DNA of 64,000 nt from Bordetella parapertussis (GTDB taxonomy: Bacteria > Pseudomonadota > Gammaproteobacteria > Burkholderiales > Burkholderiaceae_A). A program made the translations under genes and the position numbers. The stretch is taken from assembly GCA_945877235.1 (NCBI GenBank), contig CAMCRF010000002.1:1-64000 (forward strand), read 5' to 3'. Below the pieces are notes generated by a model. It was given only the letters and a program-made list of their open reading frames with translations, was not told the origin of the DNA and ran no database searches. This document shows positions 1 to 16,475 of the stretch, in pieces. Numbering within the stretch: position 1 is the first letter of the stretch; every line of letters starts with the position of its first letter.

Positions 1-38
1 TGCTCCGCATCATTCTGTTCCACACCCGAATTCTTTTG

Positions 39-124
39 TGGTGGAGGAGGTTGGATTCGAACCAACGTAGGCGTAAGCCAACAGATTTACAGTCTGCCCC
101 CTTTAGCCACTCGGGCACCCCTCC
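39..124 (-). tRNA. tRNA-Tyr (GTA)
   Basis: Read on the minus strand this is a class II tRNA. The 7-bp acceptor stem pairs GGAGGGG with CTCCTCC, followed by discriminator A and an encoded CCA at 39-41. The anticodon stem-loop has GTA in the loop ACTGTAAAT, there is a long variable arm, and the T arm reads GGTTCGAATCC. The long variable arm plus GTA identifies tyrosine. The first 38 bases of the window show nothing else recognisable. Confidence 0.97.
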
Positions 125-163
125 ACGACGAACCCATAACTATCCGTCATTCGGGTGATGCTG

Positions 164-1252: not shown

Positions 1253-1257
1253 ACACT
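1230..1257 (+). promoter_or_regulatory. candidate promoter for phaM, possibly leaderless
   Basis: TTGCGG (1230-1235) and TACACT (1252-1257) are separated by 16 bases. The expected transcription start falls near 1264, which is the A of the phaM ATG. No Shine-Dalgarno sequence precedes that ATG. Both points fit a leaderless mRNA, but the -35 match is only moderate and this is an inference. Confidence 0.3.
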
Positions 1258-1263
1258 CTCAAC

Positions 1264-1824
1264 ATGCAAAACCCTTCTGATCCATTTGCCTTTATGCGCA
1301 ACCAGTGGTCAGGCTTGGGGAGCGGGTTTCAGTTCCCCAACCAGGCCCTGCCTCCGACAAGCCTTGAGGACCTTGATCGCCGGATTTCAGACCTTAAAAC
1401 GGTTGACCAATGGCTCACGCTGAACCTCAACATGCTCAAGACCACCATCCAAGGGCTTGAGATTCAGAGGGGTACCCTGGCTGCTGTCCAGTCATTTCAG
1501 GACGCCATGGGCCAGTTCGGTCACCCCGAGAAAACGCCTGCGGAGGGTAAATCCAGCGAGTCGTCCACTGCAGGCGCAGATGAGCCCAACAGCCCCTCTC
1601 GGGCGGCCGCCGAGCAAGCCCGCCAGCAGGCGACCGCATGGTGGGAGTCCATGCAGGGGCAGTTCAACCAGCTCGTACAGCACGCCCAGTCTATGACCCA
1701 GGCTACCGCCCAAGCAGCAGATGCCGCCGTCCATGCGACGCGCCCAACGAAGCCAGAGGCCAAGGCGCCTGCCACTAAATCTCCTCCAGCCGGCCGAGCA
1801 AGGCGTCGGTCCACGCCAAAATAG
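1264..1824 (+). CDS. phaM: PhaM-family polyhydroxyalkanoate granule regulator
   Basis: 186 residues. The N-terminal part carries the helix typical of PhaM proteins (LEDLDRRISDLKTVDQWL, then LNMLKTTIQGLEIQRG at about residues 40-75). A polar linker follows, then a second helical part with WWESMQGQFNQLV, and a basic Pro/Ala/Lys tail ending RARRRSTPK. In Ralstonia, PhaM links the PHB synthase PhaC and the granule to the nucleoid through such a basic tail; that role is inferred here. No PHA synthase gene is in this window. The 3' end overlaps the convergent photolyase by 50 bases. There is no visible ribosome binding site. Confidence 0.8.
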   Translation: MQNPSDPFAFMRNQWSGLGSGFQFPNQALPPTSLEDLDRRISDLKTVDQWLTLNLNMLKTTIQGLEIQRGTLAAVQSFQDAMGQFGHPEKTPAEGKSSESSTAGADEPNSPSRAAAEQARQQATAWWESMQGQFNQLVQHAQSMTQATAQAADAAVHATRPTKPEAKAPATKSPPAGRARRRSTPK

Positions 1825-3334
1825 CATCCCGTTCTGACTCCGTGAGCCGTTCACCCTGCTTGGCCATCAGCGCGGTCCGCGGATTGCCCTTGAGGAGCGC
1901 ACCCTTGCCAATCACAAATCGCCAATAAAGGCTGGTCATGGGGCAGGCCTTAGGGCCAGTGCGCTGTTTCGGATCGTAGCGGCAGCCTCGACAGTAGTTG
2001 CTCATTTTGTCGACATACGCGCCAGAGGCAAGATAGGGCTTGCTGGTGAAGCGCCCAGCATTGGCGTAGAGCGCCATGCCCACAACATTGGGGCGCTCAA
2101 CCCAATCAATCGCATCGACATAGACCGCATGAAACCAGTCCGATAGTTCTTGCGGACGAATTTCAGCCAGAAGCCCGAATAAACCCGTGACCATTAACCG
2201 TTGGATGTGATGGGCATACCCGTAAGCGAGGGTCTGCTCGATCACCTGCGACTGACACACCATGTGGGTCTCGCCTGTCCAGAACCAAGCAGGTAACGCG
2301 CGATGCGCATCGAGGCCATTGGCCTTGGCCAGACCCGGCATCTCAAGCCAATACACGCCGCGCATGAACTCCCGCCACCCCAGAACTTGTCGAACGAATC
2401 CCTCCACACTTGCAAGATCAGCCTCGCCTCTCCGATAGGCTGCCACGACCTGATCAATGACCTCTTGGGGCTCAAGCAGGTGAAGATTCAGGCTCGAGGA
2501 GAGCAACGCATGCCAGCCAAATTGCATGCCTGTCCACATGGCGTCTTGGTGTGGACCAAAGGCCTGAAGCCGATGGGCAATGAAGTCCTCAAGCGCGAGG
2601 AGTGCCTGCTCTCGAGTGACTGGCCAACCAAACTGCTCAAGTGAACCCGGATTTGTGGGGAAAACCTGTTCAACCTCTTGCATCACCTTTCGTGTGATCG
2701 CATCCGGCGGGAAATGCGCAGGGGTTGGAATTCCCACAGGACCTTGCTTGCCAAAAGACTGCCGATTTTCGGCATCGAAGTTCCATTGGCCGCCCTCGGG
2801 TTCACCATCCGGAGCGATCAGGACCGCGTGTCGCCTGCGCATGAACCGATAAAAGTGCTCCATGCGCAGCTGCTTTCGGCCCTGAGCCCATGCTGAGAAT
2901 TCGGGTCTTGGCAGGAGAAAATGCGGGTCCTCGAGCCACTGCAGGTGCACGGCCTGAGACGCACAGGCACGCTCGATTTCGAGTGTGAGCCGCAGGTCTC
3001 CTGCTTCGACACACCAAAGCGTTTCGACTGGATTTGCCGCGAGCCAACGCGCGAGCCGCTCACCAAACGTGGGGGCCGATTGATAGCCTGGATCTTGCAG
3101 TGAAATGTACTCAACGGTGAGGCCGTGCGCCCGCCAAGCCTCGGCGGCGTGGCGCATGGCGGACAGAAAGAGGGTGGTTCGGGCCTTGTGGCTGGGCACG
3201 TGCGTCGACTCGCCCGGCGCCTCAATCATGAGCAAAGGAAAGTCGCTGGGTTCGTCCCGCATAACGGCCGGCCGGTGGGCGAGTTGATCGCCCAAAACCA
3301 ATCCGAGCCGGGACCGAGTCATTGGGGCAGTCAT
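1775..3334 (-). CDS. phrB: Fe-S bacterial cryptochrome/(6-4) photolyase (PhrB type)
   Basis: 519 residues. Starts with a Rossmann-like antenna domain (RLGLVLGDQL), followed by the helical FAD-binding domain (VLGWREFMRGVYWLEMPG, then YAHHIQRLMVTGLFGLL). Four cysteines at 360, 448, 451 and 464 have the same spacing as the [4Fe-4S] ligands of Agrobacterium PhrB (350, 438, 441, 454). The family repairs UV (6-4) photoproducts, or acts as a cryptochrome, using FAD and a lumazine antenna. It is the third gene of a litR-DUF2256-photolyase unit, 50 bases after DUF2256. Light-induced expression through LitR is the obvious inference. Confidence 0.93.
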   Translation of the reverse strand: MTAPMTRSRLGLVLGDQLAHRPAVMRDEPSDFPLLMIEAPGESTHVPSHKARTTLFLSAMRHAAEAWRAHGLTVEYISLQDPGYQSAPTFGERLARWLAANPVETLWCVEAGDLRLTLEIERACASQAVHLQWLEDPHFLLPRPEFSAWAQGRKQLRMEHFYRFMRRRHAVLIAPDGEPEGGQWNFDAENRQSFGKQGPVGIPTPAHFPPDAITRKVMQEVEQVFPTNPGSLEQFGWPVTREQALLALEDFIAHRLQAFGPHQDAMWTGMQFGWHALLSSSLNLHLLEPQEVIDQVVAAYRRGEADLASVEGFVRQVLGWREFMRGVYWLEMPGLAKANGLDAHRALPAWFWTGETHMVCQSQVIEQTLAYGYAHHIQRLMVTGLFGLLAEIRPQELSDWFHAVYVDAIDWVERPNVVGMALYANAGRFTSKPYLASGAYVDKMSNYCRGCRYDPKQRTGPKACPMTSLYWRFVIGKGALLKGNPRTALMAKQGERLTESERDAILAWTDALLGRLEEI

Positions 3335-3384
3335 CGGAGAGCGCCCGCCATCAGATGGCGGCAGCCATCAGGGCGGGGCCGGCT

Positions 3385-3555
3385 TTAGAGGCTACTCTGT
3401 GGCTTCTCACGTCGGCATCGATCAGAACAATATTTTACCTCGTCCCAATTTTTGGCCCAGTTACGCCGCCAGGTCATGGGTTTTTTGCAGGTCTGACAGG
3501 GCTTTGACGGAAGGCTGGCTTTGTTGCCGCGGTACCCGTCCCGCTCAGGCGGCAT
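3385..3555 (-). CDS. DUF2256 small zinc-finger-like protein
   Basis: 56 residues from the ATG at 3553-3555. A purine-rich AGGG lies just upstream, and the start overlaps the litR 3' end by 11 bases. A longer open frame to 3657 exists but runs deep into litR and adds nothing conserved. The core KPCQTCKKPMTWRRNW...VKYCSDRCR has two CxxC-type pairs and matches DUF2256, a short family usually found beside cryptochrome/photolyase genes. Its function is unknown; the cysteine pairs suggest one bound zinc. Its place between litR and phrB suggests co-expression with the photolyase. Confidence 0.88.
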   Translation of the reverse strand: MPPERDGYRGNKASLPSKPCQTCKKPMTWRRNWAKNWDEVKYCSDRCRREKPQSSL

Positions 3556-4471
3556 GCGCCCTGCGCCAGTCGGCGAGTGCCTGCGAGAGGTCGTCGAGCT
3601 CAACCGTGACGTCGACACCGGCCGGCGCGCGGCGAAGCAGCGCGGAACATCGCCCACCTGCCCAAATTCGAACTGCGGCGGGCACCTTTTGACGCAGCTC
3701 TGAGAGACCCTCTGCGACCGCTGTGGGATTCATGTTCTGCGAGAAAGAGAGCGCGATGATGTCGATAGACTGAGACTGGGCCGCGAGTGCAATGTCGAGG
3801 ATTGGCGTCTGAACCCCAAGGCTGACGCATCGGCACCCCTCGAGCGCGAGTAGCGCCTCGACCATCAGCAGACCCATGCCGTGCGGCTCACCTGGAAATG
3901 TTGTGAGCAGCACCTTAGGGCGTCGCGGAGAATGCGGAATGGTGCTGATTGCGTTGCGCAGGATGACCTGCATCGACTCTGTAAAAAGATGTTCTTCGTA
4001 GATCTCGAGTTGCCCGCGGGACCAGCTCTCGCCCACGCGCTGGGTCAAGGGAGCGACGACTTCGGTAACAAAAGGTGCAAGGCCCATGCGCAGCACGCGC
4101 TGGCCGAGCTCACGCCGGAGCTCATCGACCTGATGCTTGCGAATGAGCACCATAAGGCTGTCGAGGTCGGCGGCCTGCTCCTTGGACTCGCGCCCTGCGG
4201 CGCTTGGCAGGCGATCTGCCAGAGCTTGGAGCTCTTCCTGCGTGAGGGCCATGATCTTTCCCGGCCGATGACCGGCATCCATCAAGCGCCGAATCGCTCG
4301 CAATCGATCGACCTGATCCATTGGATAAATGCGCTCGCCGAACTGATCCCGCTGGGGGATTGGAAACCCATAGCGTCGCTCCCACACACGCAGGGTGTCC
4401 TTGGACAAGCCGGTGTCTCGCTCGACAGCGGCGATGCTCAGAAAGACGGGAGGTTTGACCGCTTGGTCCAT
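3545..4471 (-). CDS. litR: MerR-family, B12-dependent light-sensing repressor (LitR/CarH type)
   Basis: 308 residues. A MerR DNA-binding domain occupies about residues 10-80 (LSKDTLRVWERRYGFPIPQR). A helical cobalamin-cap region contains W150-x9-E160-H161, the signature that contacts the adenosyl group in CarH proteins. A Rossmann B12 domain from about residue 185 has E195-x-H197-x2-G200, where H197 would be the lower axial ligand. Members bind DNA as AdoCbl tetramers in the dark and release it when light breaks the Co-C bond. Thermus CarH, as I recall it, has a His immediately after the Trp that captures cobalt after photolysis; here that residue is Ser151. Divergent from the stress operon starting at 4591 and overlapping DUF2256, so probably autoregulated. 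Confidence 0.93.
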   Translation of the reverse strand: MDQAVKPPVFLSIAAVERDTGLSKDTLRVWERRYGFPIPQRDQFGERIYPMDQVDRLRAIRRLMDAGHRPGKIMALTQEELQALADRLPSAAGRESKEQAADLDSLMVLIRKHQVDELRRELGQRVLRMGLAPFVTEVVAPLTQRVGESWSRGQLEIYEEHLFTESMQVILRNAISTIPHSPRRPKVLLTTFPGEPHGMGLLMVEALLALEGCRCVSLGVQTPILDIALAAQSQSIDIIALSFSQNMNPTAVAEGLSELRQKVPAAVRIWAGGRCSALLRRAPAGVDVTVELDDLSQALADWRRAHAA

Positions 4472-4492
4472 GTGGCTCAGAGATAACCTTAT

Positions 4493-4507
4493 TTTGTCAT
4501 AGACAAA
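4493..4507. promoter_or_regulatory. candidate LitR operator (palindrome)
   Basis: TTTGTC-ATA-GACAAA is a perfect 6-bp inverted repeat with a 3-base spacer in the litR/stress-operon intergenic region. A degenerate relative, TTGACTAGGACAA, lies at 4557-4569 (9 of 13 positions shared). The region also has a direct repeat TGACTA(G/A)GAC at 4558 and 4580, 22 bases apart. That these are LitR sites is inferred from position only; they do not match the operator consensus I remember for other LitR proteins. Confidence 0.45.
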
Positions 4508-4510
4508 TGT

Positions 4511-4539
4511 TTGACGAGGCAGGATGCTGTGCTTAGTAT
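4511..4539 (+). promoter_or_regulatory. candidate sigma-70 promoter of the light-stress operon
   Basis: TTGACG (4511-4516), a 17-base spacer, then TAGTAT (4534-4539). This predicts a start near 4546 and a leader of about 45 bases before the ATG at 4591. The -35 element lies 3 bases beyond the palindrome 4493-4507, so a protein bound there could occlude RNA polymerase. Confidence 0.55.
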
Positions 4540-4563
4540 AAGAGTCATTCGCCCTGTTGACTA
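4535..4563 (-). promoter_or_regulatory. candidate litR promoter overlapping the opposite promoter
   Basis: On the minus strand TAGTCA (4563-4558), 17 bases, then TATACT (4540-4535). The -10 is strong and the -35 poor, as expected for an activated or weak promoter. Its -10 lies on the same bases as the -10 of the plus-strand promoter, so the two units probably compete or are controlled together. Confidence 0.4.
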
Positions 4564-4590
4564 GGACAAAACCCTTTTCTGACTAAGACC

Positions 4591-4860
4591 ATGTCAACCA
4601 ACACATCTGCTTCCCCCTTTTTTTTCACGCGTCACCACCGCGGGCTCTGGCTTGGATTGTTGGGCCTCATGGCACTTATGGTCTGGTGGCCAGCGCTGGC
4701 CGTTCCTGCACCCCCTCCCGGCAAAGCACCTTGCGCCGTGCAGCTGCGGGCTGAGTCGGAGCTCATTCGTCTGCACCGAGAATCGACCCTGACAGGCATG
4801 GCGCTTGTCACCGCCCAACCCGACGCAGGTCAACCCAACACAAGACCCAACGCCCCATGA
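4591..4860 (+). CDS. small exported peptide of unknown function, first gene of the light-stress operon
   Basis: 89 residues, no family recognised. Residues 17-38 form a hydrophobic helix (RGLWLGLLGLMALMVWWPALA) ending in an AxA-like signal-peptidase motif. The predicted mature part is short, proline-rich and has a single Cys (KAPCAVQLRAESELIRLHRE). Its TGA overlaps the ATG of the peroxidase gene (ATGA at 4857-4860), a pattern of translational coupling that supports expression. No strong ribosome binding site is visible. It could be a real secreted peptide or only a leader cistron. Confidence 0.5.
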   Translation: MSTNTSASPFFFTRHHRGLWLGLLGLMALMVWWPALAVPAPPPGKAPCAVQLRAESELIRLHRESTLTGMALVTAQPDAGQPNTRPNAP

Positions 4861-5498
4861 AAAATCCATGCCTTCGCCCCAGTCGCACCCTCAAAATAAA
4901 CAATTGTTTGCGCTCACTTACATTGGGGCTCTCGAGTCTGGCAATGATCATAGCCCTCAATGCCGCAAGCATCCCTTCGGCTGCTGCATCCGCATCAGCT
5001 GCTGGCATATGCCCGAGCCTCCTGAATCAGTCGTTTCCGAAACTCCAAGACGACTCTGCCCAGTCACTCTGCCAATATGCGGGTAAAGTGGTGCTCGTCG
5101 TCAACACGGCCAGCTATTGCGGGTTTACCAGTCAGTACGACGGGCTCGAAAAACTCTACAGCCAGCACAAGGACCAAGGCCTCGTGGTGCTGGGCTTCCC
5201 CTCCAACGATTTCAGCCAAGAGCCAGGCACCAACCAGGAGATCGCTGCCTTCTGCACCAACACCTTCGCGGTCAAGTTTCCGATGTTTGCCAAAACCACC
5301 GTCAAAGGCCCCAAGGCAAATCCCCTCTTTGCGGAACTCTCTCGCCTTGCGGAACCTCCGGGCTGGAATTTTCACAAGTACCTGATTGGTCGAGATGGGC
5401 GTCTTGTCGGAAGTTATTCGAGCATGGTGGGCCCCCAAAGCCGAAGCCTGCGGCGAGACCTCGACAAAGCACTCGCCGCCCCTGCGGCCATCAAGTAA
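4857..5498 (+). CDS. exported glutathione peroxidase family protein
   Basis: 213 residues. A signal peptide covers about residues 1-48 (LTLGLSSLAMIIALNAASIPSAAAS). The peroxidase fold follows, with the peroxidatic Cys88 in NTASYCGFTSQY, Gln121 in FSQEPG, a second Cys133 in the CTNTF segment and the WNFHKYLI block that supplies the catalytic Trp/Asn. Such Cys-type enzymes usually use thioredoxin and reduce lipid or alkyl hydroperoxides. Export to the periplasm would place it near membrane lipids oxidised by light. Translationally coupled to the preceding peptide gene, second gene of the operon divergent from litR. Confidence 0.93.
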   Translation: MKNPCLRPSRTLKINNCLRSLTLGLSSLAMIIALNAASIPSAAASASAAGICPSLLNQSFPKLQDDSAQSLCQYAGKVVLVVNTASYCGFTSQYDGLEKLYSQHKDQGLVVLGFPSNDFSQEPGTNQEIAAFCTNTFAVKFPMFAKTTVKGPKANPLFAELSRLAEPPGWNFHKYLIGRDGRLVGSYSSMVGPQSRSLRRDLDKALAAPAAIK

Positions 5499-5522
5499 CT
5501 CATTGAGCAAAGGACGTCCCAC

Positions 5523-6338
5523 ATGAACGCACCCGAGAAATTTGCCCCCGCTGCCCTGCCCGACATCCAGTCTTCCGTCGACCAACGCCGCCTGCCCATT
5601 CAGCGCGTGGGCATCAAGGCCATGCGGCACCCTGTCCACGTCGCGACCCCCATTGGCCCGCAGCCGACGGTTGCCATGGTCGACATGATGGTCTCGCTCC
5701 CAGCTGAGGCCAAAGGCACCCACATGTCGCGATTTATTGAAGTCTTCCAATCCCACGAACTGCCGCTGAGCCTGCACTCCATGGAATCCATGATGCAAGC
5801 CATGCTCGCGCGGCTGGAGGCCGCTGACGGATACATTCGGGTCAGCGCCCCGTACTTCGTGCGGAAAACAGCACCCGTCTCGGGTGTGGCCTCACTCATG
5901 GACTATGAAGTCACCTGGGAAGCCCAGCATCAAGGCGGCAAAACCCAGGTCTCCCTTGAGGTCGTCGTTCCGGTCACAAGCTTGTGCCCCTGCTCGAAGA
6001 ACATCTCAGACTACGGCGCCCACAACCAGCGGTCTCATGTGACGCTGAGCGTCGATCTCTCCGAGCCCAAGGCGCCCGAGTGGCTCATCGGCATTGCAGA
6101 GGCAGCGGCCTCATGTGAACTCTGGGGGCTGCTCAAACGCCCTGACGAGAAATACGTCACCGAGCGCGCTTATGACAATCCCAAGTTCGTGGAAGACCTG
6201 GTGCGTGACGTTGCCACCGCGCTGCAGCAGGACCCTTCGGTACTCGGATTCTCTGTTGCATCTGAGAACTTTGAGTCCATCCACAACCACTCGGCCTACG
6301 CTCGCATCGATCACGGCACCCGCAACCCCGGACACTGA
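5523..6338 (+). CDS. folE2: GTP cyclohydrolase I type IB (FolE2)
   Basis: 271 residues, the usual FolE2 length. Contains the block [21 protein letters not shown] (Cys155, Cys157) and [19 protein letters not shown], both typical of the type IB enzyme. It converts GTP to 7,8-dihydroneopterin triphosphate, the first step of folate and pterin synthesis. FolE2 enzymes accept metals other than zinc, and in several bacteria folE2 sits in light or singlet-oxygen regulons next to photolyase and cfa genes. Its place here, 24 bases after gpx and 2 bases before the flavoprotein gene, fits that pattern. A link to pterin antennae of photolyases is possible but unproven. Confidence 0.95.
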
Positions 6339-6340
6339 GC

Positions 6341-7666
6341 ATGCATAAACCCCATGTGGTGATCGTGGGCAGCGGCATTTCCGGGCTCTCTGCCGCATGG
6401 CATCTCCGCGAGACCGCACGCGTAACCGTGCTTGAGTCGCAGGGGCGACTCGGCGGCCACACCCACACCCGAGTCATCACCCTCGACGGCCGTGAGGGTC
6501 CTGTGGACACCGGATTCATCGTCTTTAACGACCGAACCTATCCAGAGCTTTTGGCTTGGTTTAGCGCCCTGCAGGTGCCGAGTCACCCAGCCGATATGTC
6601 GCTGAGCGTCTCTGCCAACCAGTCGCGCATCGAATGGTGTGGCAAAAACCTGCGCACCGTGTTTGCCCAGCCCAAAAACCTTGTTTCGGGTCGGTTCTGG
6701 CGCATGCTCTCTGACATTCTCACCTTCAATCGTGAGGCCACGGCGTTGCTTCACCGCGCCGAGCTTGGCCACGGAGACACCCGTAGCTTGGGAGAGGTCC
6801 TAGACACGCTGCGCCTGAGCCCAGATTTCGAATCCCTGTATTTGCTGCCCATGGCTGGGGCCATCTGGTCGTGTCCGCTCGAGCAAATGCGCGCAATGCC
6901 GTTTGCAAGCTTCGCTCGGTTCTGCGTCAATCATGGTCTGCTGCAGATCTTCAATCGGCCCCAGTGGCGCAGCGTGCGCGGCGGCAGCAACACCTACATT
7001 CAACGGCTGCAATCCCGTCTGCGCGAGGAATCCGCACCGGTGGAGTTCAAAACCCACCATGAAGTGGCCTCCATCGCACCTGCGCTGGCCCACCGAGGGC
7101 CGGTGGTCTACGGACACGATCACCTGCGAAATACAACCTTTTCGCTCGAAGCCGACGCCGTCATTCTGGCCGGACACACAGACCAATCCGCCCGCGTGCT
7201 TGCCGAGCATGCCCACCCTGCGCAGCCCTGGCTTGCCCAGTTCGAATACCAGGCAAACACGGCTTACTTGCACACCGATTGCAGCCTGATGCCAACGCGC
7301 AAGGCAGCTTGGGCCGCGTGGAATGTGCGAGCCGACGCACCCGGAGAACAGGTATCGGTCACCTACTGGATGAACCAGCTCCAGGACCTGGCCTTTGAAC
7401 GACCGGTTTTGGTGAGTCTTAACCCCAATCGTCCCCCCGACCCCTCATCTGTCCTCGAGACCATTGAGTACAGCCACCCCGTCTTTGACCGTGCGGCTCA
7501 GGACAGCGTAAACGCGCTTCAAGGACTTCAAGGTGAGGGAGCCATCTGGCTCGCAGGTGCTTGGATGGGCTACGGCTTTCATGAAGATGGTTTTCGCTCT
7601 GGTCGCGTGGCAGCCCAAGGCCTCATGCACTGGCTTGAACGCCCTGTCGCACGCCATGCCGCCTGA
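6341..7666 (+). CDS. COG2907-type FAD-dependent oxidoreductase (possible fatty-acyl desaturase)
   Basis: 441 residues. The N-terminal dinucleotide fold VVIVGSGISGLSAAWHL (G10-x-G12-x2-G15) is followed by Glu32 and the family block GRLGGHTHTR (residues 36-44), then VDTGFIVFNDRTYP. This is the flavin amine-oxidase-like family that almost always travels with DUF1365 and a Cfa-type methyltransferase, which follow directly here. In Rhodobacter a flavoprotein called UfaD introduces a second double bond in an acyl chain on the way to methylated furan fatty acids; I believe this protein is of that kind, but the assignment rests on memory of the family and on context. Overlaps the next gene by 11 bases. 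Confidence 0.85.
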   Translation: MHKPHVVIVGSGISGLSAAWHLRETARVTVLESQGRLGGHTHTRVITLDGREGPVDTGFIVFNDRTYPELLAWFSALQVPSHPADMSLSVSANQSRIEWCGKNLRTVFAQPKNLVSGRFWRMLSDILTFNREATALLHRAELGHGDTRSLGEVLDTLRLSPDFESLYLLPMAGAIWSCPLEQMRAMPFASFARFCVNHGLLQIFNRPQWRSVRGGSNTYIQRLQSRLREESAPVEFKTHHEVASIAPALAHRGPVVYGHDHLRNTTFSLEADAVILAGHTDQSARVLAEHAHPAQPWLAQFEYQANTAYLHTDCSLMPTRKAAWAAWNVRADAPGEQVSVTYWMNQLQDLAFERPVLVSLNPNRPPDPSSVLETIEYSHPVFDRAAQDSVNALQGLQGEGAIWLAGAWMGYGFHEDGFRSGRVAAQGLMHWLERPVARHAA

Positions 7667-8420
7667 TCCTGCGCATAGCCCGAGCCTGTTTGAGGGGAGA
7701 GTCCGCCATGCGCGCATCGGTGCGCACGCACACGCCTTTGAAGCCCGTAGCCTCATCGCGCAGATTCCCCTTCGCGCAACGCAAACCGCCCAATGGAGGG
7801 GGGGCTTGGGCTTTGGCCTAAACCGCCCGGCCCTCATCAATGTTCAGGATCGAGACCATGGCAATGGAATGCCGTTGCTCGACTGGGCAGAACAGCAGCT
7901 GCGTGAGTATGGCATTGATCCCGGCCAGGGTGAGATCTGGCTCTGCTGTCTGCCTCGGCTCACCGGTTTTGCTTTCAAGCCCGTGAGCTTCTGGATTTGC
8001 TGTCGAACGGATGGCTCTCCCCAGGCCATCATCGCGGAGGTAAACAACACCTTCGGCGACCGGCATGTCTACCTGCTCGAGACCCCCGAGGGATATCGCA
8101 ATGGCCAGACCCTTCGGTGCGAGAAGACTTTCTATGTCTCGCCGTTCTGTGAGGCCCGTGGCGAATATCACTTTCGGTTCTTTCACTCGGCTCAGCCCGA
8201 GAGTCCTTTTCTTGCACGAATTGACTATTTCCTAGACGGGGCCCATGTCCTCGCAACCAGCATCAGTGGCAAATCTCAACTTCTGACCCAACGAGGCGCG
8301 TTCTATTTATGGCTACGACAACCCCTAGCAAGTCTTGCGGTTCTCCTGAACATTCACTGGCAAGCGCTGCTGCTCTGGCGCAAGGGGCTGCGGCTGGTCC
8401 CCAGACCGAGTCGGGTGTAG
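7656..8420 (+). CDS. DUF1365 family protein
   Basis: 254 residues from the ATG at 7656, which overlaps the 3' end of the flavoprotein gene by 11 bases; a longer in-frame start at 7533 would lie entirely inside that gene. Family features are SLFEGRVRHAR at the start, FKPVSFWICCRTDG, AIIAEVNNTFGDRHVYLL and KTFYVSPFCEARGEYHFRF. The family is conserved but of unknown function and is typically sandwiched between COG2907 and Cfa genes, so it probably takes part in the same acyl-chain modification. Its 3' end overlaps the methyltransferase frame by 112 bases. Confidence 0.88.
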   Translation: MPPDPAHSPSLFEGRVRHARIGAHAHAFEARSLIAQIPLRATQTAQWRGGLGFGLNRPALINVQDRDHGNGMPLLDWAEQQLREYGIDPGQGEIWLCCLPRLTGFAFKPVSFWICCRTDGSPQAIIAEVNNTFGDRHVYLLETPEGYRNGQTLRCEKTFYVSPFCEARGEYHFRFFHSAQPESPFLARIDYFLDGAHVLATSISGKSQLLTQRGAFYLWLRQPLASLAVLLNIHWQALLLWRKGLRLVPRPSRV

Positions 8421-9658
8421 GCGCATGGTCGATTCCTAGCCCCCGTGCAAAGCCGGGTTTTATCGCGCGCCGGGTGCTCAAGCTGCTCTCCCAGATCAAC
8501 CTCGGAGAGCTCAAGCTCAAATGCCCCGACGGCTCCACGATGCACTTCGGTCGGCCCGACGCAGCACTTGGCCTGCAGGAGCTCTGGATCCGAGACTGGG
8601 ATGTCCTGCGCCAGGCGGGCACGAAGGGGGACATCGGATTTGGTGAGGCGTATATGCAAGGCGCTTGGTCCACCCCAAATCTGCCCGGACTGCTGCGGCT
8701 CTTAGTGAAAAACCGTTCGGCCATTCAAGCAGCGATTTCAGGCAACCCATTGCTGCTCGTGCTAGACCGACTTAGCCACATGCTGCGAGCGAACTCGCTG
8801 GCCCAGGCCAAGCGAAACATCGAGGCGCATTACGACCTTGGCAACGACTTCTACCAGCTCTGGCTCGATCCCACCATGACTTATTCGAGCGCGCTCTTTG
8901 ACCAAAAAGGCGCGTGGGGTCAGGCCGTCGACCTTCAAGCCGCTCAGATCCGCAAAATGGACCGCGTGCTTGAAGAGCTGGGGCCACTGCAGGCCAACAG
9001 CAAGACCCTTGAAATTGGCTGTGGCTGGGGAGGCCTTGCGCTTCACCGGCTTCAGAAAGCACCCGGCGAGCATGTTGGCATTACGCTCTCGCGTGAGCAG
9101 CGCAGCTGGGCGCTGGAGCAACTGACCGCAGCGGGTCTTGCCGACCGCGCAGAAATTGCGCTAACCGACTACCGACAAGTGCAAGGGCAGTTCGATGGCA
9201 TCGTCTCAGTAGAGATGATCGAGGCCGTCGGTGAAGACTACTGGCCCATTTACTTTCAGACCCTCCGAGACCGGCTCAAACCCGGCGGCAGGGCCGTGAT
9301 TCAAGCCATCGTGATTGATGAGTCCCTCTTTGACGACTACCGCAGTGGCACGGACTTCATTCAGAAGTACATCTTCCCCGGCGGCATGCTCATGAGCCCT
9401 GCCCACCTTGAGCGCCATGCCCGAGCCAAGGGCCTGCGCATTCGAAACTCATTTAGCTTTGGGCAAGACTACGGTCGCACTCTGCGCGAGTGGCTCGTGC
9501 GCTTCGATGCGCACCGAGAGGCCATTCGCTCCTTGCGGTTTGAAGAGCGATTCATCGCAATGTGGCGCTTCTATCTCGCCTACTGTGAGGCGGGTTTTTA
9601 CAGCGGCGACTTAGATGTCCTTCAGGTCACTCTTGAGCATGATTTGGCTCATGGCTAA
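8309..9658 (+). CDS. cyclopropane-fatty-acyl-phospholipid synthase family methyltransferase
   Basis: 449 residues. HYDLGNDFYQLWLDPTMTYS (174-193) and the SAM-binding LEIGCGWGG (234-242) are diagnostic of the Cfa family, as is EMIEAVGEDYWPIYF. Family members transfer a methylene or methyl group from SAM to the double bond of a membrane acyl chain. Because it follows COG2907 and DUF1365 it may methylate rather than cyclopropanate (compare UfaM). The only ATG at the N-terminal end is 8309, giving a 112-base overlap with DUF1365; a GTG near 8474 is an alternative that would remove about 55 poorly conserved residues. Ends 8 bases inside the next gene. Confidence 0.9.
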   Translation: MATTTPSKSCGSPEHSLASAAALAQGAAAGPQTESGVGAWSIPSPRAKPGFIARRVLKLLSQINLGELKLKCPDGSTMHFGRPDAALGLQELWIRDWDVLRQAGTKGDIGFGEAYMQGAWSTPNLPGLLRLLVKNRSAIQAAISGNPLLLVLDRLSHMLRANSLAQAKRNIEAHYDLGNDFYQLWLDPTMTYSSALFDQKGAWGQAVDLQAAQIRKMDRVLEELGPLQANSKTLEIGCGWGGLALHRLQKAPGEHVGITLSREQRSWALEQLTAAGLADRAEIALTDYRQVQGQFDGIVSVEMIEAVGEDYWPIYFQTLRDRLKPGGRAVIQAIVIDESLFDDYRSGTDFIQKYIFPGGMLMSPAHLERHARAKGLRIRNSFSFGQDYGRTLREWLVRFDAHREAIRSLRFEERFIAMWRFYLAYCEAGFYSGDLDVLQVTLEHDLAHG

Positions 9659-10250
9659 GCCTGCGACACCGCAATTGGGGCCCTCGCGACGCGCAGTGCT
9701 GAGCTGGGCAGGTCATGCGACTGTCCTCATGATCATGGCCAGCGTCACGCGCTCCGGTTTTGCCTCAAGCCCAATGGATCAACAGATCCGGACCCTCGGG
9801 CTTCAACTGGTCGGACGCGCGGACTTGCGCTTTTTTGGGCTCAAGGTCTATGAGGCTAGCCTCTGGGCACCCGCTCAAGCCGAGGAAGCAACCCTGCTCA
9901 ACGGGCCCTTTGCACTGGAGTTGCATTACAACCTTCGGTTCAAGGGTGGAGATATTGCGCGACGCAGCGTTGAGGAAATTGAGGGTCTTGGTCTCATGGA
10001 CCGCTCGCAGCATGACAAACGACTTCGCGAACTCACAGCACTCTTTCCCACGGTTGAGTCGGGAGATCGGCTCACCGGGGTGTATCTGCCCAAGGCACCA
10101 AGCCCTTTCTTTCTGAACGGAAAACCCATCGGTGAGATTCGTGACCCAGAGTTTGCTCAGATGTTTTTTCGGATCTGGCTAGATGCCAAGACCAGCGAGC
10201 CCCGGCTGCGTCAAGCTCTGCTTGCACCACTCTCAAAACGTGCCTCGTGA
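9651..10250 (+). CDS. chalcone-isomerase-fold periplasmic protein
   Basis: 199 residues from the ATG at 9651, which overlaps the methyltransferase stop by 8 bases. An N-terminal signal segment (AVLSWAGHATVLMIMASVTRSGFAS) precedes a domain resembling the bacterial chalcone-isomerase-like family: LVGRADLRFFGLKVYEASLW, ALELHYNLRFKGGDIARRSVEEI and DRLTGVYLPKAPSPFFLNGK. Related folds bind fatty acids in plants, so a lipid-binding role in the lipid-modification operon is plausible; this is an inference. Its stop overlaps the GTG start of the transporter gene. Confidence 0.78.
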   Translation: MAKPATPQLGPSRRAVLSWAGHATVLMIMASVTRSGFASSPMDQQIRTLGLQLVGRADLRFFGLKVYEASLWAPAQAEEATLLNGPFALELHYNLRFKGGDIARRSVEEIEGLGLMDRSQHDKRLRELTALFPTVESGDRLTGVYLPKAPSPFFLNGKPIGEIRDPEFAQMFFRIWLDAKTSEPRLRQALLAPLSKRAS

Positions 10251-11539
10251 ATGCTCCCGCGCAAGCGCCTGACACCCCCACATCAGCAGCAGTCTTGCGC
10301 TACGGCCTTGTCGGCCTCCCGCTTGCGGGTGCCGCGCTACCGCTTTATCTCCTAACCCCCCAACTCTATGCAGCGGGCCTGGGCCTTCCACTGGCCTGGG
10401 TCGGTGCGGCCTTGATGGCGAGCCGCTTGGTCGACGCCTTCATCGATCCACTGCTTGGGCAGTGGATCGATCGCACCCCTGGGCAACGCTTTCAACGCTG
10501 GATCCTGCCCGCCCTGCTCCTGCTGAGCTTGGGACTGGCCGCACTTTTTCTGCCTCCAGCCGATGCACTTGGGCAGACCGCACTGCTGGTCTGGATGACT
10601 TCAGCTGCAATTATTGTCTCTCTTGCCAACAGCGCAGCCGGCCTCGCGCATCAGGCTTGGCCCGTCGCCTGGGGGCTTGTTGAAGCCCAGCAAGCAAGGC
10701 TCGTGTCCGCACGAGAGCTCTTTACCCTTGTGGGTGTCATTCTTGCCTCAATGGCTGCCGCCTTGGGTGCCCCGCTTATCATCGTGGTACTGGTTGGATG
10801 CTCAGCCCTCGCGGGCGCGATCAGTGTCCGAGGGCTCCCCGGTCAGGTTCGCCCAAACATGGATTGGGGCCCAACTCGACTCTCCCTCTTGCGTGGCCTA
10901 TCTGCCCTCGACTCGAGGGGGAGGGCGACCTTTCTCTGCCTTTCGCTCAATGCACTGGCCAACGCCATCCCAGCAACTCTCTTTCTCTTTTTTGTCTCCG
11001 ATGGGCTTGGGCTGAGCCAGACAGCCTCAGCTGGTCTCCTGGCCCTCTACTTCGTTTGCGCACTCGCGGCAATACCGCTTTGGAATCGTGCAATTCAAGG
11101 CGGCCTCTCTGCGCAGAGAGCCTGGGTTCTGGCGCTCTCGGGCTCGATCCTTCTGTTTCTCTGCGTGCCTTGGCTTGATCCCTCGTGGGCTTGGCTGTTC
11201 GTGCTGGTCTGCGTTGGGACGGGGCTCTGCCTCGGCGCGGAACTCATCGCCCCCGCCCTCTTGATCAGCCAGAGCCTCACACGCGTCGGGCTCTCTGAGA
11301 CCCGCAATGGAGAGTTTTTTGGCCTGTGGAACCTGCTCGCCAAGCTCGCGCTCGCCCTGGCCGCTGGCGGGGCGTTACCGCTGCTTGACCTGGTTGGCTA
11401 TACCCCCGGACGCATGCCGGCACCTTTTGCACTGGGCCTGGTCTATGCAGGAATTCCGTGTGTTTTGAAACTTGCCGCCCTAACCACCTACCTCAGCCTG
11501 GAGAAACGCCATGTCCCCCTCAGCCCGTCTCATCTCTAA
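10247..11539 (+). CDS. MFS transporter, GPH/MelB-like
   Basis: 430 residues with about 12 hydrophobic segments. The loop SRLVDAFIDPLLGQWIDRT (residues 63-81) fits the cytoplasmic signature of the sugar-cation symporter branch, although operon members of this type are associated with lipid-modification clusters. The start is a GTG at 10247 overlapping the previous stop codon (GTGA). Substrate unknown. MFS carriers accompany the equivalent Rhodobacter singlet-oxygen gene cluster, so export or flipping of a lipid precursor is possible. Confidence 0.83.
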   Translation: MNAPAQAPDTPTSAAVLRYGLVGLPLAGAALPLYLLTPQLYAAGLGLPLAWVGAALMASRLVDAFIDPLLGQWIDRTPGQRFQRWILPALLLLSLGLAALFLPPADALGQTALLVWMTSAAIIVSLANSAAGLAHQAWPVAWGLVEAQQARLVSARELFTLVGVILASMAAALGAPLIIVVLVGCSALAGAISVRGLPGQVRPNMDWGPTRLSLLRGLSALDSRGRATFLCLSLNALANAIPATLFLFFVSDGLGLSQTASAGLLALYFVCALAAIPLWNRAIQGGLSAQRAWVLALSGSILLFLCVPWLDPSWAWLFVLVCVGTGLCLGAELIAPALLISQSLTRVGLSETRNGEFFGLWNLLAKLALALAAGGALPLLDLVGYTPGRMPAPFALGLVYAGIPCVLKLAALTTYLSLEKRHVPLSPSHL

Positions 11540-12083
11540 ATACCGTCACGGGCTCACCCATGGGCTCCTCATTCTTGCGCTCAGTCTGGGACTCCTCGGG
11601 TGCGCTGCCCCCGGTGTTGAGCGCTATCAAGCCCAGCAGCCAGCGCTCGATCTGGCGCGCTACTTCCAAGGCCAGACCAAGGGCTGGGGTATGGTCCAGG
11701 ACTGGAAAGGTGAGGTCACTCGGCGCTTTGTTGTCACCATTGACGGACGCTTCGAGGGCGACCAGGGTGTGCTCGATGAGTCCTTCGTCTGGAGCGATGG
11801 AGAAAAACAAAAGCGCATCTGGCGCCTCAAACGCGTGGGACCCGGCCTCTGGTCTGGTACGGCCGACGATGTTGTCGGGGAGGCCCGTGGCGAGATTCGC
11901 GGCAATGCCCTGCGCTGGCAATACACACTGGCCGTGCCTATCGACGGTCGCTCTGTTGAGCTCCAATTCGACGACTGGATGCACCTCATCGACGAAGAGG
12001 TCATGATCAACAAGGCAACCATGACGAAGTTTGGACTGCCGGTGGGCGAGGTCACCCTAGCCTTTAGACGTCCACAGCCATGA
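11511..12083 (+). CDS. DUF3833 lipoprotein
   Basis: 190 residues. The signal peptide ends in the lipobox LLGC, with Cys31 the expected lipidated residue. The mature domain (LARYFQGQTKGWGMVQDWKGEVTRRF, then FDDWMHLIDEEVMINKATMTKFG) fits DUF3833, a family of outer-membrane-anchored or periplasmic proteins of unknown function repeatedly found in light or oxidative-stress operons with cfa and SDR genes. Overlaps the transporter gene by 29 bases and the SDR start by 4 bases. Confidence 0.9.
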   Translation: MSPSARLISKYRHGLTHGLLILALSLGLLGCAAPGVERYQAQQPALDLARYFQGQTKGWGMVQDWKGEVTRRFVVTIDGRFEGDQGVLDESFVWSDGEKQKRIWRLKRVGPGLWSGTADDVVGEARGEIRGNALRWQYTLAVPIDGRSVELQFDDWMHLIDEEVMINKATMTKFGLPVGEVTLAFRRPQP

Positions 12084-12904
12084 GTTTCTTTAGCCTGCCC
12101 TGGTTTCGTCCCCCCAACACGCCCATTCGGGACTGGTCATCCAGAACGGTTTGGGTCGTTGGCGCCTCCACAGGCATTGGTCTGGCATTGGGTCAGGCGC
12201 TGGTGAGACACGGCGCACAGGTCTGTGTCTCATCCCGCCGACTCAATGCGCTCGAAGCAGGCTTTCCAGAATCTGATGTCCTCAAGGTTATTTGCGATAT
12301 ACGCGAGCCAGGTGCGGTTCGCCATGCGCTCGCACAACAGTCCGCCCGGTCTCGGCTGCCCGATGTGGTCTTTTGGGTTGCCGGGGACTACAAACCCCTT
12401 CACAGTGCGCAGTTCGATCCAGTGGCCGCCAGAGACCTCATCGAGACCAATCTCAATGCGGCCTTCGACGGCCTGAGCGCACTGGGTGAGGCCTGGGGCC
12501 TCGGCAATGCCAGATCTGGCTCACCCTCGGGGCCACCAAGGCATCTCTGCTGGTTCGGCAGCGTGGCTGCTTACCGGGGCCTGCCACAGGCTCTGGCCTA
12601 CAGCGCCAGCAAGGCAGGGCTCATGGCCATGGCCGAGACCAGCCATGTCGAGCTCAAGCCCCTCGGTGTAGACGTGTCCATCGTCAGTCCTGGCTTTGTG
12701 CAAACCCGCCTGACTGACCAGAACACCTTCGAGATGCCCGCCCTGCTCACCACGGACCAGGCGGCGCAAGAGACGCTTGCAGGCTTAGCCACGGGCGCTT
12801 TTGAAATTCACTTTCCCAAGCGATTCACCCTCGGGCTCAAGCTGCTTCGAATCCTTCCACACCGCATCGCCCTGGCGCTACTCGCGCGCACGCGTCCACA
12901 GTGA
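12080..12904 (+). CDS. short-chain dehydrogenase/reductase
   Basis: 274 residues. GASTGIG (28-34) binds the cofactor, and Ser161, Tyr174 and Lys178 (YSASK) form the catalytic set. The C-terminus has a hydrophobic, basic segment (FTLGLKLLRILPHRIALALLARTR) that could touch the membrane. The substrate is unknown; in this operon a hydroxy- or keto-acyl lipid intermediate is a reasonable guess. Joined to both neighbours by 4-base overlaps. Confidence 0.9.
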   Translation: MSFFSLPWFRPPNTPIRDWSSRTVWVVGASTGIGLALGQALVRHGAQVCVSSRRLNALEAGFPESDVLKVICDIREPGAVRHALAQQSARSRLPDVVFWVAGDYKPLHSAQFDPVAARDLIETNLNAAFDGLSALGEAWGLGNARSGSPSGPPRHLCWFGSVAAYRGLPQALAYSASKAGLMAMAETSHVELKPLGVDVSIVSPGFVQTRLTDQNTFEMPALLTTDQAAQETLAGLATGAFEIHFPKRFTLGLKLLRILPHRIALALLARTRPQ

Positions 12905-13389
12905 TCACAGATCAAGACCGGCCCATCCCACAGGCCCCATGCGAACAAAAAGACCTCTGGTGGTCCTCGTTCAAGGCTTGTGTCGAGCAGCTCAGCCTCG
13001 TGCAGGTGCCCGTGCTCGGCCAGTTCTATGCGGCCGATGCCGAGTTTCGGGATCCTTTCCATACAGTCTTCGGTCGAGAAGCCATTCTGCGCAGCTACGC
13101 AGCCATGTTCAATGGACTGCACGCCCCGCGCTTTGAGTCCCTGGCCTTGGCCACGACCGCATCACATGAGACGGTTGCTGTGCGCTGGGTTTTTTGCTTT
13201 CAGCTCAAGGCCCATACAGCCCTCATTCAGATCCCCGGGACCAGCTGGCTCACCCTCAATCAGGCTCAAGAAATTACGCTGCATGAGGACCACTGGGACG
13301 CCAGCGCCCTTCTGGCGGCTTTTCCTTTGGTGGGTGGCCTCACACGACTGACCAAGAAACTCATTGCCAAGCAGGCCCAATCCCACTGA
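12901..13389 (+). CDS. NTF2-fold (SnoaL-like) protein
   Basis: 162 residues from a GTG start that overlaps the SDR stop. The pattern FYAADAEFRDPFHTVFGREAILRSYAAMFNGL is typical of nuclear-transport-factor-2-like small-molecule-binding proteins of the SnoaL type, and EDHWDASALLAAFPLVG is the usual C-terminal part. Members act as isomerases, cyclases or binding proteins on small hydrophobic substrates. As last member of the tightly coupled operon it probably acts on the same product line. No terminator is visible before the next gene. Confidence 0.83.
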   Translation: MITDQDRPIPQAPCEQKDLWWSSFKACVEQLSLVQVPVLGQFYAADAEFRDPFHTVFGREAILRSYAAMFNGLHAPRFESLALATTASHETVAVRWVFCFQLKAHTALIQIPGTSWLTLNQAQEITLHEDHWDASALLAAFPLVGGLTRLTKKLIAKQAQSH

Positions 13390-13441
13390 AACTTGTGCGT
13401 TATGTCATCGATCCGTCTCAAATTCTCCATACAATCGAAAA

Positions 13442-14308
13442 ATGAGATCCATATCCGCCGACCAGATGCTCTACCCCGAGCTGTTTCGTGCTTTTGAGCG
13501 TGTGCGCTGGGATTTAGAGAAAGATATTGATTGGGCGCGGTTTGAGCCCTCGCAGCTCTCGGACGAGCAGGCCCAGACCATCAAAATGAATGCCATCACG
13601 GAATGGGCCGCGCTGCCCGCCACAGAAATGTTCCTGCGCGACAATCGCGCCGACAGTGATTTCTGTGCCTTTATGTCCGTTTGGTTTTATGAAGAGCAAA
13701 AGCATAGCCTCGTGCTGATGGAGTACCTGCGTCGTTTCGCGCCACAGCACCTGCCGACCGAGGCCGAACTGCATGCGGTGCGTTTCGAGTTCGATCCTGC
13801 ACCCGCACTTGAGACCCTCATGCTGCATTTCTGCGGAGAGATTCGGCTCAATCATTGGTACCGATGCGCGGCGCAATGGCACACCGAGCCGGTCATCAAA
13901 CAAATCTACGAGACCATCGCCAAAGACGAAGCTCGGCATGGGGGCGCTTACCTGCGTTACATGAAAAAAGCCCTGGCCACGATGGGCGATTCGGCTCGCG
14001 CTGCCTTTGCAAAGATTGGCGTCCTCATGGCCAGTGCGGGGCGCACCCAAAAGGCTTTGCACCCAACGAACTTACATGTCAACGAGACGCTCTTTCCGAA
14101 CGACACCGTGCAGAGCCGACTGCCCGAGCCCGGCTGGCTGGAGACCTGGCTCGACAGACAGATTCAGTTCGACTCAGACTGGGAGAAAAAGGTCTCCGAG
14201 CGCATTCTGCACAACCTCAGCCTGCTCTTTGACCGCAGCTTTGGCAATGTGCAGGAGCTCAACCGCTTTCGCAAAGAGCTCAACGCCTCACTGCAAGCCG
14301 CTGCATAG
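13442..14308 (+). CDS. acyl-ACP-desaturase-like ferritin-fold diiron protein
   Basis: 288 residues from the ATG at 13442; an upstream in-frame ATG at 13364 would overlap the NTF2-fold gene and adds no conserved sequence. The diiron ligand set is visible: Glu62, E84-E85-x2-H88 (EEQKH), Glu133 (CGEIRLNHWY) and D162-E163-x2-H166 (DEARH). This is the soluble acyl-ACP desaturase arrangement, though related oxidases and hydroxylases share it. It begins 52 bases after the light-stress operon and may be read through from it. If it is a desaturase it could supply the unsaturated chain modified by the flavoprotein and the Cfa-family enzyme; this is inference. Confidence 0.8.
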   Translation: MRSISADQMLYPELFRAFERVRWDLEKDIDWARFEPSQLSDEQAQTIKMNAITEWAALPATEMFLRDNRADSDFCAFMSVWFYEEQKHSLVLMEYLRRFAPQHLPTEAELHAVRFEFDPAPALETLMLHFCGEIRLNHWYRCAAQWHTEPVIKQIYETIAKDEARHGGAYLRYMKKALATMGDSARAAFAKIGVLMASAGRTQKALHPTNLHVNETLFPNDTVQSRLPEPGWLETWLDRQIQFDSDWEKKVSERILHNLSLLFDRSFGNVQELNRFRKELNASLQAAA

Positions 14309-14329
14309 GGCCGGCCCAGCCAACGCACT

Positions 14330-14863
14330 GTGGATTTTCTCGCCAAGAGCCTCGACGCGGCGCTCTGGCACGGGCCAGATGGGCCAAGTCTTGGGCCCCT
14401 CGCCCAAGCCGAGATCGATGCCCTACCGAGGCCCTTGGTGTTTACCAATGGGGTCTACGACCTCTTACATCCCGGTCATGTTCAGCTGCTCGCCCAAGCC
14501 CGAGGGCTCGGCGCGAGCCTCGTGCTTGCGCTCAACAGCGATGCCTCGGTCCGGACCCTGCAGAAGGGGGCGGATCGCCCTATGTGCCCCTTATCGGACC
14601 GAATGGCAGTAGCCGGCGCACTCAAGAGCGTGGACCGGGTGACCTGGTTCGAGTCCCCGACACCACTCGACCTCATCCTCGCGGTGCGGCCAGACATCCT
14701 TGTGAAGGGCGGAGACTGGCCCATCGACGAGATTGTCGGAGCCAGAGAGGTTCAGGGTTGGGGGGGCCATGTGCACTCCATCCCTTTTGCGCTCAACCGC
14801 TCAACGACCCAGTTGATTGAGAAGATTCGAGCGTCAGCGCAGCCTCGAGACCCGCAAAAATAA
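14330..14863 (+). CDS. rfaE2: D-glycero-beta-D-manno-heptose 1-phosphate adenylyltransferase
   Basis: 177 residues from a GTG. The nucleotidyltransferase signature FTNGVYDLLHPGHVQLL and the later block VRPDILVKGGDWPIDEIVGA identify the stand-alone RfaE2/HldE C-terminal enzyme, which makes ADP-heptose for the lipopolysaccharide core. The kinase partner is not in this window. Its 3' end overlaps the convergent coaX gene by 71 bases. Confidence 0.92.
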   Translation: MDFLAKSLDAALWHGPDGPSLGPLAQAEIDALPRPLVFTNGVYDLLHPGHVQLLAQARGLGASLVLALNSDASVRTLQKGADRPMCPLSDRMAVAGALKSVDRVTWFESPTPLDLILAVRPDILVKGGDWPIDEIVGAREVQGWGGHVHSIPFALNRSTTQLIEKIRASAQPRDPQK

Positions 14864-16459: not shown

Positions 16460-16475
16460 TTGGCATCATAGCGTC

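Follow-up and report, generated by a model that had tools for sequence, protein, structure and literature searches.

A LitR-linked gene island with a Ufa-type lipid operon, probably serving photo-oxidative protection, in Burkholderiales

The island and its conservation

The window analysed here, 64,000 nucleotides of contig CAMCRF010000002.1 deposited under the name Bordetella parapertussis, contains a gene island (1775..14308) in which a B12-type LitR regulator lies opposite an operon for lipid and redox proteins, and which is probably a light-repressor-controlled unit for photo-oxidative (membrane) protection. Three genes are read on the minus strand: the LitR/CarH-type regulator (3545..4471), a DUF2256-domain open reading frame (ORF; 3385..3657; Pfam DUF2256 E 5e-20) whose start is uncertain and which overlaps the end of LitR, and a photolyase/cryptochrome of the FeS-type bacterial PhrB/CryB group (1775..3334; Pfam DPRP E 3e-69), for which the top PDB match is cryptochrome B (3zxs, E 2.7e-131) with the CRGC...ACP cysteine motif aligned. 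Opposite them the ORF list and Pfam place eleven plus-strand ORFs (4591-13389). The first (4591..4860) is small, hydrophobic, perhaps exported (by eye) and has no Pfam match. It is followed by a Cys-type glutathione peroxidase (Gpx; 4857..5498; Pfam GSHPx, PDB 6vpd) with an N terminus that by eye resembles a signal peptide, by FolE2, a type IB GTP cyclohydrolase (5523..6338; Pfam GCHY-1 E 6e-90), and by a core trio made up of a UfaD-like flavoprotein of the COG2907 type (6341..7666; Pfam Amino_oxidase), a UfaO-like DUF1365 protein (about 7656..8420, start inferred; Pfam DUF1365 E 3e-64) and a UfaM-like methyltransferase of the CMAS family (about 8309..9658, start uncertain; Pfam CMAS). Pfam assigns the remaining five to a chalcone-isomerase-fold protein (Chalcone_3; 9615..10250) whose N terminus looks exported by eye, an MFS_2 transporter (10247..11539), a DUF3833 protein (11511..12083) with a lipobox-like LLGCAAP seen by eye, a short-chain dehydrogenase/reductase (SDR; 12080..12904) and a SnoaL_2/NTF2-fold protein (12901..13389). 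Beyond these, on the same strand, lies FER (about 13442..14308, the ATG being at 13442 or 13466), a putative ferritin-like diiron protein resembling acyl-ACP (acyl carrier protein) desaturases, with rfaE2, coaX and birA (names partly by eye) downstream.

A reading made from sequence only had already described a contiguous island over these coordinates, and the ORFs and Pfam matches agree with it, gene order being kept over 80 loci. The eleven overlapping genes that it reported are present as eleven ORFs, but only eight of the ten junctions overlap, with gaps only at Gpx/FolE2 (24 nt) and FolE2/UfaD (2 nt), and FER, a twelfth gene within the same coordinates, is missing from its gene list.

Conservation was assessed in a flavoprotein-anchored set, the best 80 of 278 confirmed loci, with genes matched by tblastn; contig ends cut many of these loci short, and the pairs L018/L019 and L045/L046 appear to be near-duplicates. 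DUF1365 is matched in all 80 loci, next to the flavoprotein gene in each, and CMAS in 76, behind DUF1365, the other four (L049, L057, L066 and L079) stopping at that point, so the association of these genes is not due to chance. Matches to SDR (63), Gpx (59), MFS (50), SnoaL (50), Chalcone_3 (48) and DUF3833 (48) are also frequent, followed by LitR (37), RfaE2 (32) and FER (16), while FolE2 (5), DUF2256 (4) and photolyase (2) are rare. The common operon is thus Gpx-UfaD-UfaO-UfaM-(Chalcone_3-MFS-DUF3833)-SDR-NTF2, and the counts mark FolE2 as a local addition. The closest relative is a contig from a metagenome-assembled genome (MAG), L001, with LitR 98% and UfaD 85% identical; it is likewise labelled Bordetella parapertussis, yet its closest matches are Burkholderiales, perhaps reflecting a naming error. 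Next come a betaproteobacterial MAG (L002) and the isolate Burkholderiales LSUCC0115 (L003). The small first ORF of the window has a 54% identical counterpart in L001 (tblastn). In several lineages the operon begins with a small hydrophobic ORF of poorly kept sequence (L001 4867-5160, L003 3487-3768, L013 9099-9374), and no Pfam match was found for those of the window, L003 and L013.

Across 150 genomes sampled from the order, LitR was counted at E <= 1e-40 (46 genomes), and UfaO, for which all matches at E <= 0.001 were kept (the weakest 5e-11), was found in 64. UfaO is present in 43 of the 46 genomes with LitR (LitR only, 3) as against 21 of the 104 without it (neither, 83); the Fisher p of 4e-18 for this association is overstated, since the genomes are related through shared ancestry. 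The two genes lie no more than 15 kb apart in 35 of the 43 genomes that have both, on different contigs in seven and far apart in one. A whole-genome search of 24 genomes left eight without a LitR match, each of these with a LitR-less island, and four more genomes with LitR-less islands (G004, G015, G020 and G022) gave only a distant or partial LitR match.

Elsewhere in the window, an origin region about 42 kb from the island was recognised by eye from the atp operon, parAB, rsmG/mnmG, mnmE/yidC, dnaA, dnaN and gyrB (32442-61672). A terminator search was uninformative (16 found, 14.2 expected). The host is presumably a freshwater member of the Burkholderiales.

The candidate operator and its regulator

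The promoter region shared by LitR and the operon carries the palindrome TTTGTC-N3-GACAAA. Predicted LitR operator site 1, TTTGTCATAGACAAA (4493..4507, no strand assigned), is kept in relatives and is the sole match with at most one mismatch in the window, where 0.09 would be expected; predicted site 2, GTTGACTAGGACAAA (4556..4570, no strand assigned), has two mismatches and lies 63 bp from site 1, a match as good arising in 10 of 2000 shufflings of the following 90 nt. A promoter pattern search places a sigma70-like operon promoter, TTGACG-N17-TAGTAT, at 4511..4539 on the plus strand and a divergent sigma70-like litR promoter, TAGTCA-N17-TATACT, at 4535..4563 on the minus strand. The -10 boxes of the two overlap, site 1 lies just upstream of the operon -35 and site 2 overlaps the litR -35. 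Promoter-like matches in 1-16500 are not above chance (3 against 3.4 expected), though two of the three fall in the LitR/operon intergenic stretch.

Among 38 LitR-divergent promoters, that of the window included, the palindrome is found at 14, 23 and 33 with at most zero, one and two mismatches, respectively, compared with 0, 0.02 and 0.28 in shuffles and 0.02, 0.02 and 0.46 in stretches from the same loci. The starts of homologous operons were also compared (one of the 80 loci was dropped for want of upstream sequence), and here the palindrome, at two mismatches or fewer, is present at 32 of 37 loci with LitR but at only one of 42 without it. This contrast is the best evidence that the palindrome is the LitR operator.

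Paired sites were sought in 39 promoters (the 38 and that of Azoarcus), one site having at most one mismatch, the other at most three, with spacings of 16-89 bp allowed. They are found in 12, of which 11 are spaced by 62-64 bp and that of Azoarcus by 74 bp, although this set contains near-duplicates (window/L001 and L018/L019); such spacings would correspond to six and seven helical turns at 10.5 bp per turn. In nine of the 39 promoters, including that of the window, TTGAC stands three bases past the palindrome, in 18 a -35-like hexamer of the TAGACA/TGGACA type lies inside it, and in 12 neither layout is recognised. A wider regulon is not supported: across 23 genomes, with island sites included, TTGTCNNNGACAA has 73 sites and its backward control 58, an excess so slight that the LitR regulon looks mostly local. 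Only a few genomes stand out, such as G007 (7 against 1) and G023 (9 against 2). L018 (3382-8416) carries two LitR genes separated by about 4 kb, and genome G023 has four palindromes no more than 150 bases from them.

LitR itself matches MerR_1, B12-binding_2 and B12-binding, each above the Pfam cut-off, and so has the domain set of the class I LitR/CarH photoreceptors. Equivalents of CarH Trp131, Glu141, His142 and the cobalt ligand His177 are kept in all 36 LitR sequences aligned to 3whp/5c8d (two truncated loci, L067 and L077, were dropped), in keeping with the B12-type regulator proposed from sequence. A cobalamin adenosyltransferase (PF02572 or PF01923) was found in all 12 LitR-bearing relative genomes examined. 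Control by light and B12 may be expected of this protein, which resembles CarH of Thermus thermophilus and Bacillus megaterium in its MerR and B12 domains, its Trp/Glu/His contacts and its probable place as a promoter repressor (PMC8156234, PMC10442372). In contrast, CarH is tied to carotenoid synthesis and uses an operator of three or four 11-bp direct repeats, nAnnTnnACAn. The class II LitRs of Pseudomonas differ further, having only the helix-bundle B12 domain and a TGTACA-N12-TGTACA operator, with a LOV partner in the case of PmlR2 (PMC9758184); the window LitR has both B12 domains and the predicted operator TTTGTC-N3-GACAAA, and assignment to class II was ruled out by the second B12 domain and by the absence of TGTACA from 4472-4590. 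The pmlR1/pplR1 cluster of P. mendocina and P. putida is nevertheless similar to the island in its LitR-linked phrB, SDR, FAD oxidoreductase and ufaM, and its sigma70 promoter, with one operator on the -35 and another between the start site and the start codon, can be likened to that of the window. The LitR-linked ufaM and phrB of P. mendocina are induced by light about 25-33 fold (PMC9758184).

The predicted lipid product and the diiron protein

By family, gene order and RpoE-ChrR context, the flavoprotein/DUF1365/CMAS trio is probably orthologous to the furan-fatty-acid set UfaD/UfaO/UfaM, and all three families are clustered in one operon (Pfam; tblastn over the 80 loci). In Rhodobacter sphaeroides, UfaM, UfaD and UfaO are reported to be sufficient for furan fatty acid, the products from cis-vaccenate being 11Me-12t-18:1, 11Me-10t,12t-18:2 and the furan fatty acid 9M5-FuFA (PMC7380195). 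The sequence-only reading called the core trio a known one but had not recognised DUF1365 as UfaO, a named enzyme of that pathway which the same paper assigns to DUF1365. Furan acyl chains are the likeliest predicted product of the operon, and the earlier proposal of furan or methylated acyl chains is supported by the sufficiency of the three enzymes and by the presence of UfaD-UfaO relatives beside RpoE-ChrR.

The R. sphaeroides system (RSP1091-1087 and ufaM) shares with the window UfaD, UfaO, UfaM, further operon genes and, probably, a part in singlet-oxygen protection (PMC7380195, PMC3818230). It is under the control of RpoE-ChrR, an extracytoplasmic function (ECF) sigma/anti-sigma pair, with ufaM (RSP2144) outside the operon, whereas the window has a LitR repressor and a single operon, to which Gpx, FolE2, the chalcone-isomerase fold, the NTF2 fold and the diiron protein are added.

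The CMAS protein differs from E. coli Cfa, whose bicarbonate ligands we take to be Cys139, Glu239, His266, Ile268 and Tyr317. In an alignment of 78 CMAS proteins the Cys139 position is Ser in 70 (the window among them), Ala in seven and Gly in one, and the His266 position is Gln in 77, again including the window, and Arg in one. Glu239 is kept in all 78 and Ile268 and Tyr317 each in 77, the lone exception at His266, Ile268 and Tyr317 being the frameshifted L085. Two of the five ligands are therefore replaced, indicating that the enzyme is no ordinary CFA synthase; it also falls below the cut-off of all NCBIfam Cfa models. On these grounds (Cys139 to Ser, His266 to Gln and the sub-cut-off scores) an identity as cyclopropane fatty acid synthase was rejected.

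It is unlikely, although part of the evidence would fit, that the product is a methylated, methylated-diene or other CMAS-type chain instead of a furan, with DUF1365 and diiron chemistry differing here. UfaD and UfaO share only 34-44% identity with proteins of RpoE-ChrR loci, which served as proxies for the Rhodobacter sequences, and the island contains an extra diiron desaturase-like protein. However, the UfaD-UfaO-UfaM order holds in every locus of the 80 that is not cut before the CMAS gene, and R. palustris relatives of the three proteins make the same furan chain (PMC7380195).

Furan chains remain the preferred product, but two observations speak against one joint product of all genes of the operon. 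In R. sphaeroides the fatty acid profile shows no detectable change when RSP1087, RSP1088 or RSP1089 is deleted alone (PMC7380195), which leaves MFS, DUF3833 and SDR with no link to the furan product, and in some relatives (L005, L028, L043 and L060) the SDR gene comes after the CMAS gene without any intervening match to Chalcone_3, MFS or DUF3833. Chalcone_3, MFS, DUF3833, SDR and NTF2 are probably accessory proteins (carriers, transport, detoxification) and not steps of one pathway.

FER starts 52 or 76 nt past the SnoaL_2 gene on the same strand, and no promoter of its own was seen by eye in 13390-13441. Its invariant residues include two ExxH-type motifs, E77xxH80 and E155xxH158, as well as E46, E54 and E125. 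Its fold is that of a diiron helical bundle, as in soluble stearoyl-ACP desaturase and R2lox, which share the two ExxH-type motifs. Identity to the structural matches is 10-19%, R2-type proteins lie within about 2 Z units, and sequence matches are weak (DesA2, E 0.3 and 0.025). By its fold FER is likely an acyl-ACP-desaturase-like diiron protein and a putative acyl-chain enzyme.

Whether FER belongs to the island can be weighed from the 150 genomes. It was found in 65, of which 58 were kept at E <= 2e-66 and seven weak or partial matches were dropped; 34 genomes have both LitR and FER, 12 only LitR, 24 only FER and 80 neither. It is possible, though not the favoured view, that FER is an old neighbour of rfaE2 to which the island is adjacent by accident, and that it stands outside any light response. 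RfaE2 adjoins FER in most of 20 fetched FER loci irrespective of a nearby LitR match, and 24 of the 58 FER genomes have no LitR match at the threshold used. Yet FER and LitR lie within 15 kb in 22 of the 34 genomes with both (on different contigs in ten, far apart in two), their separation falling into three classes of about 0.8-1.3, 2.6-2.8 and 9-10 kb, and at ten loci (L015, L020, L038, L045, L046, L051, L052, L053, L055 and L056) FER has LitR, photolyase or Gpx as a neighbour, and the stretch that was fetched contains no RfaE2 match. As a member of the island, FER would probably supply or further oxidise an acyl chain.

Light control, other inputs and biological meaning

Similar modules occur under other regulators. 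In Azoarcus KH32C one with UfaD, UfaO, CMAS, chalcone isomerase, MFS, DUF3833, SDR and NTF2 lies under a MerR protein with B12 domains, and in Azospirillum thermophilum UfaD, UfaO, an apparently frameshifted methyltransferase, MFS, DUF3833, NTF2 and SDR are found beside RpoE-ChrR, as are UfaD, UfaO and MFS in Qingshengfaniella, both being alphaproteobacteria; these loci are L085 and L086. Burkholderia anthina has a related module near a sigma/anti-sigma pair. Among LitR-less loci inspected by eye, many have the operon behind a GlnE-like gene, sometimes with rfaE2 separating the two; a TetR-like gene faces the operon in L058, L061 and L068, and in loci of the Variovorax/Xenophilus type FER faces it, with a sigma factor beyond. 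The recurrence of a like module under different regulators suggests that its output is photo-oxidative protection whichever the sensor. The B. anthina module sits on a plasmid typed as conjugative (L087 2527-13858), together with lipocalins, GTP cyclohydrolase I, DUF2256 and two sigma-70 family factors, showing that modules of this kind can be carried by mobile elements. In the LitR-less Variovorax locus L038 (7111-8037), a sigma-70 family factor beside FER and Gpx has a SnoaL_2-like tail, below the cut-off, unlike the window operon, where SnoaL_2 is a separate protein.

Related responses are known in other organisms. In Vibrio cholerae (VCA0056-0057) a MerR-type regulator likewise lies beside phr, and photo-oxidative genes include one resembling CFA synthase, but regulator and lipid gene are not in one island; the blue-light response there needs both the phr-adjacent MerR-like protein and ChrR (PMC5241685). 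The RpoE2-ChrR regulon of Shewanella shares periplasmic Gpx, phr, cfa and SDR with the island but is under ECF sigma control and scattered over several loci (PMC4336711).

The most likely mechanism is a light-relieved repression. In the dark, LitR with adenosyl-B12 (AdoB12) would occupy the two palindromes bracketing the overlapping divergent promoters, keeping both litR and the operon off. In light the cofactor would be cleaved and LitR released, allowing both strands to be transcribed. UfaM, UfaD and UfaO would then methylate and desaturate unsaturated phospholipid acyl chains and oxygenate them to furan chains, which may scavenge or report singlet oxygen, while exported Gpx would reduce lipid peroxides outside the cytoplasm, the photolyase would repair DNA, and the chalcone-isomerase-fold protein, DUF3833 lipoprotein, MFS, SDR and NTF2-fold proteins might move or clear modified lipid products.

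Several observations weigh against this reading. A LitR match is missing in 43 of the 80 loci, five of the 38 LitR promoters lack the palindrome at two mismatches or fewer, and the LitR-less locus L016 carries it. Within 4472-4590 the palindrome fits neither published type of LitR/CarH operator: besides the missing TGTACA, no full match to the CarH direct repeats was found, the best tandem score being reached by 292 of 500 shuffles. LitR does not reach the NCBIfam CarH equivalog NF052513 (123 bits, cut-off 400), and His132 of T. thermophilus CarH is missing in all 36 sequences, replaced by Ser in the window and by Ala, Met, Leu or Val in the other 35. Identity to the Qingshengfaniella proteins is only 39% for UfaD and 34% for UfaO, and the unchanged profiles of the R. 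sphaeroides deletion strains belong here as well. Finally, 14 of 22 relatives have matches to ChrR-type cupins (PF12973), which leaves room for singlet oxygen as a second input. RpoE-ChrR as the regulator was set aside, no sigma factor being seen among the picked ORFs around the cupins in the three of the 14 cupin-bearing relatives whose surroundings were read (G001, G012 and G020, the picked ORFs of G020 not showing the cupin itself). In the nearest relative (L081 5489-6698) a double-cupin gene adjoins a BLUF-like protein (by eye), another possible light input.

Ligation by His132 is described as critical for tetramer disassembly in T. thermophilus CarH, although an earlier report found the H132A protein still responsive (PMC10442372). 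LitR might accordingly be CarA-like, repressing without AdoB12 photosensing and relieved by a partner protein or by redox, with an output that is still photo-oxidative; Myxococcus xanthus CarA has a canonical B12 motif yet represses without B12 (PMC8156234), and class II LitRs work with a LOV partner (PMC9758184). We consider this improbable, given the four invariant AdoB12-contact residues and the adenosyltransferases in every genome examined. Repression by AdoB12-LitR and its relief by light remain the preferred account. The interpretation drawn earlier from sequence is supported for LitR, the island and the furan hypothesis but probably does not hold for the joint product, and it overlooked three features, namely the candidate operator, the overlap of the divergent promoters and the diiron protein.

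LitR-linked, light-inducible ufaM/phrB in Pseudomonas (class II) and the lipid pathway in Rhodobacter are already known. In the literature searched, which left most subscription journals outside, no description was found of a TTTGTC-N3-GACAAA operator, of a Ufa operon placed under a B12-type LitR or of its diiron member; no two of DUF3833, DUF1365 and chalcone isomerase were found together, and "ferritin-like" was not found in papers treating at least four of LitR, ferritin-like, desaturase, B12 and blue light. A further, rather doubtful extension is that betaproteobacterial LitRs form a separate photoreceptor-operator class without the His132 switch that recognises TTTGTC-N3-GACAAA, in many cases at a pair of sites some six helical turns from each other (seven in Azoarcus), and shuts two overlapping divergent promoters by joining the sites, and that the island includes an undescribed diiron acyl-chain enzyme. 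If this is true, light would give a further modified furan-type membrane lipid by way of that enzyme.

The island is carried by Burkholderiales of sunlit fresh water, Limnohabitans among them, and brings together a sensor of the B12 type, a single defined candidate for the DNA switch and a probable furan-lipid operon, related output modules standing beside LitR or RpoE-ChrR. In this setting LitR provides a test case for the light reaction of a CarH relative without His132, and DUF3833, Chalcone_3, SnoaL_2 and the diiron protein become testable members of one response.

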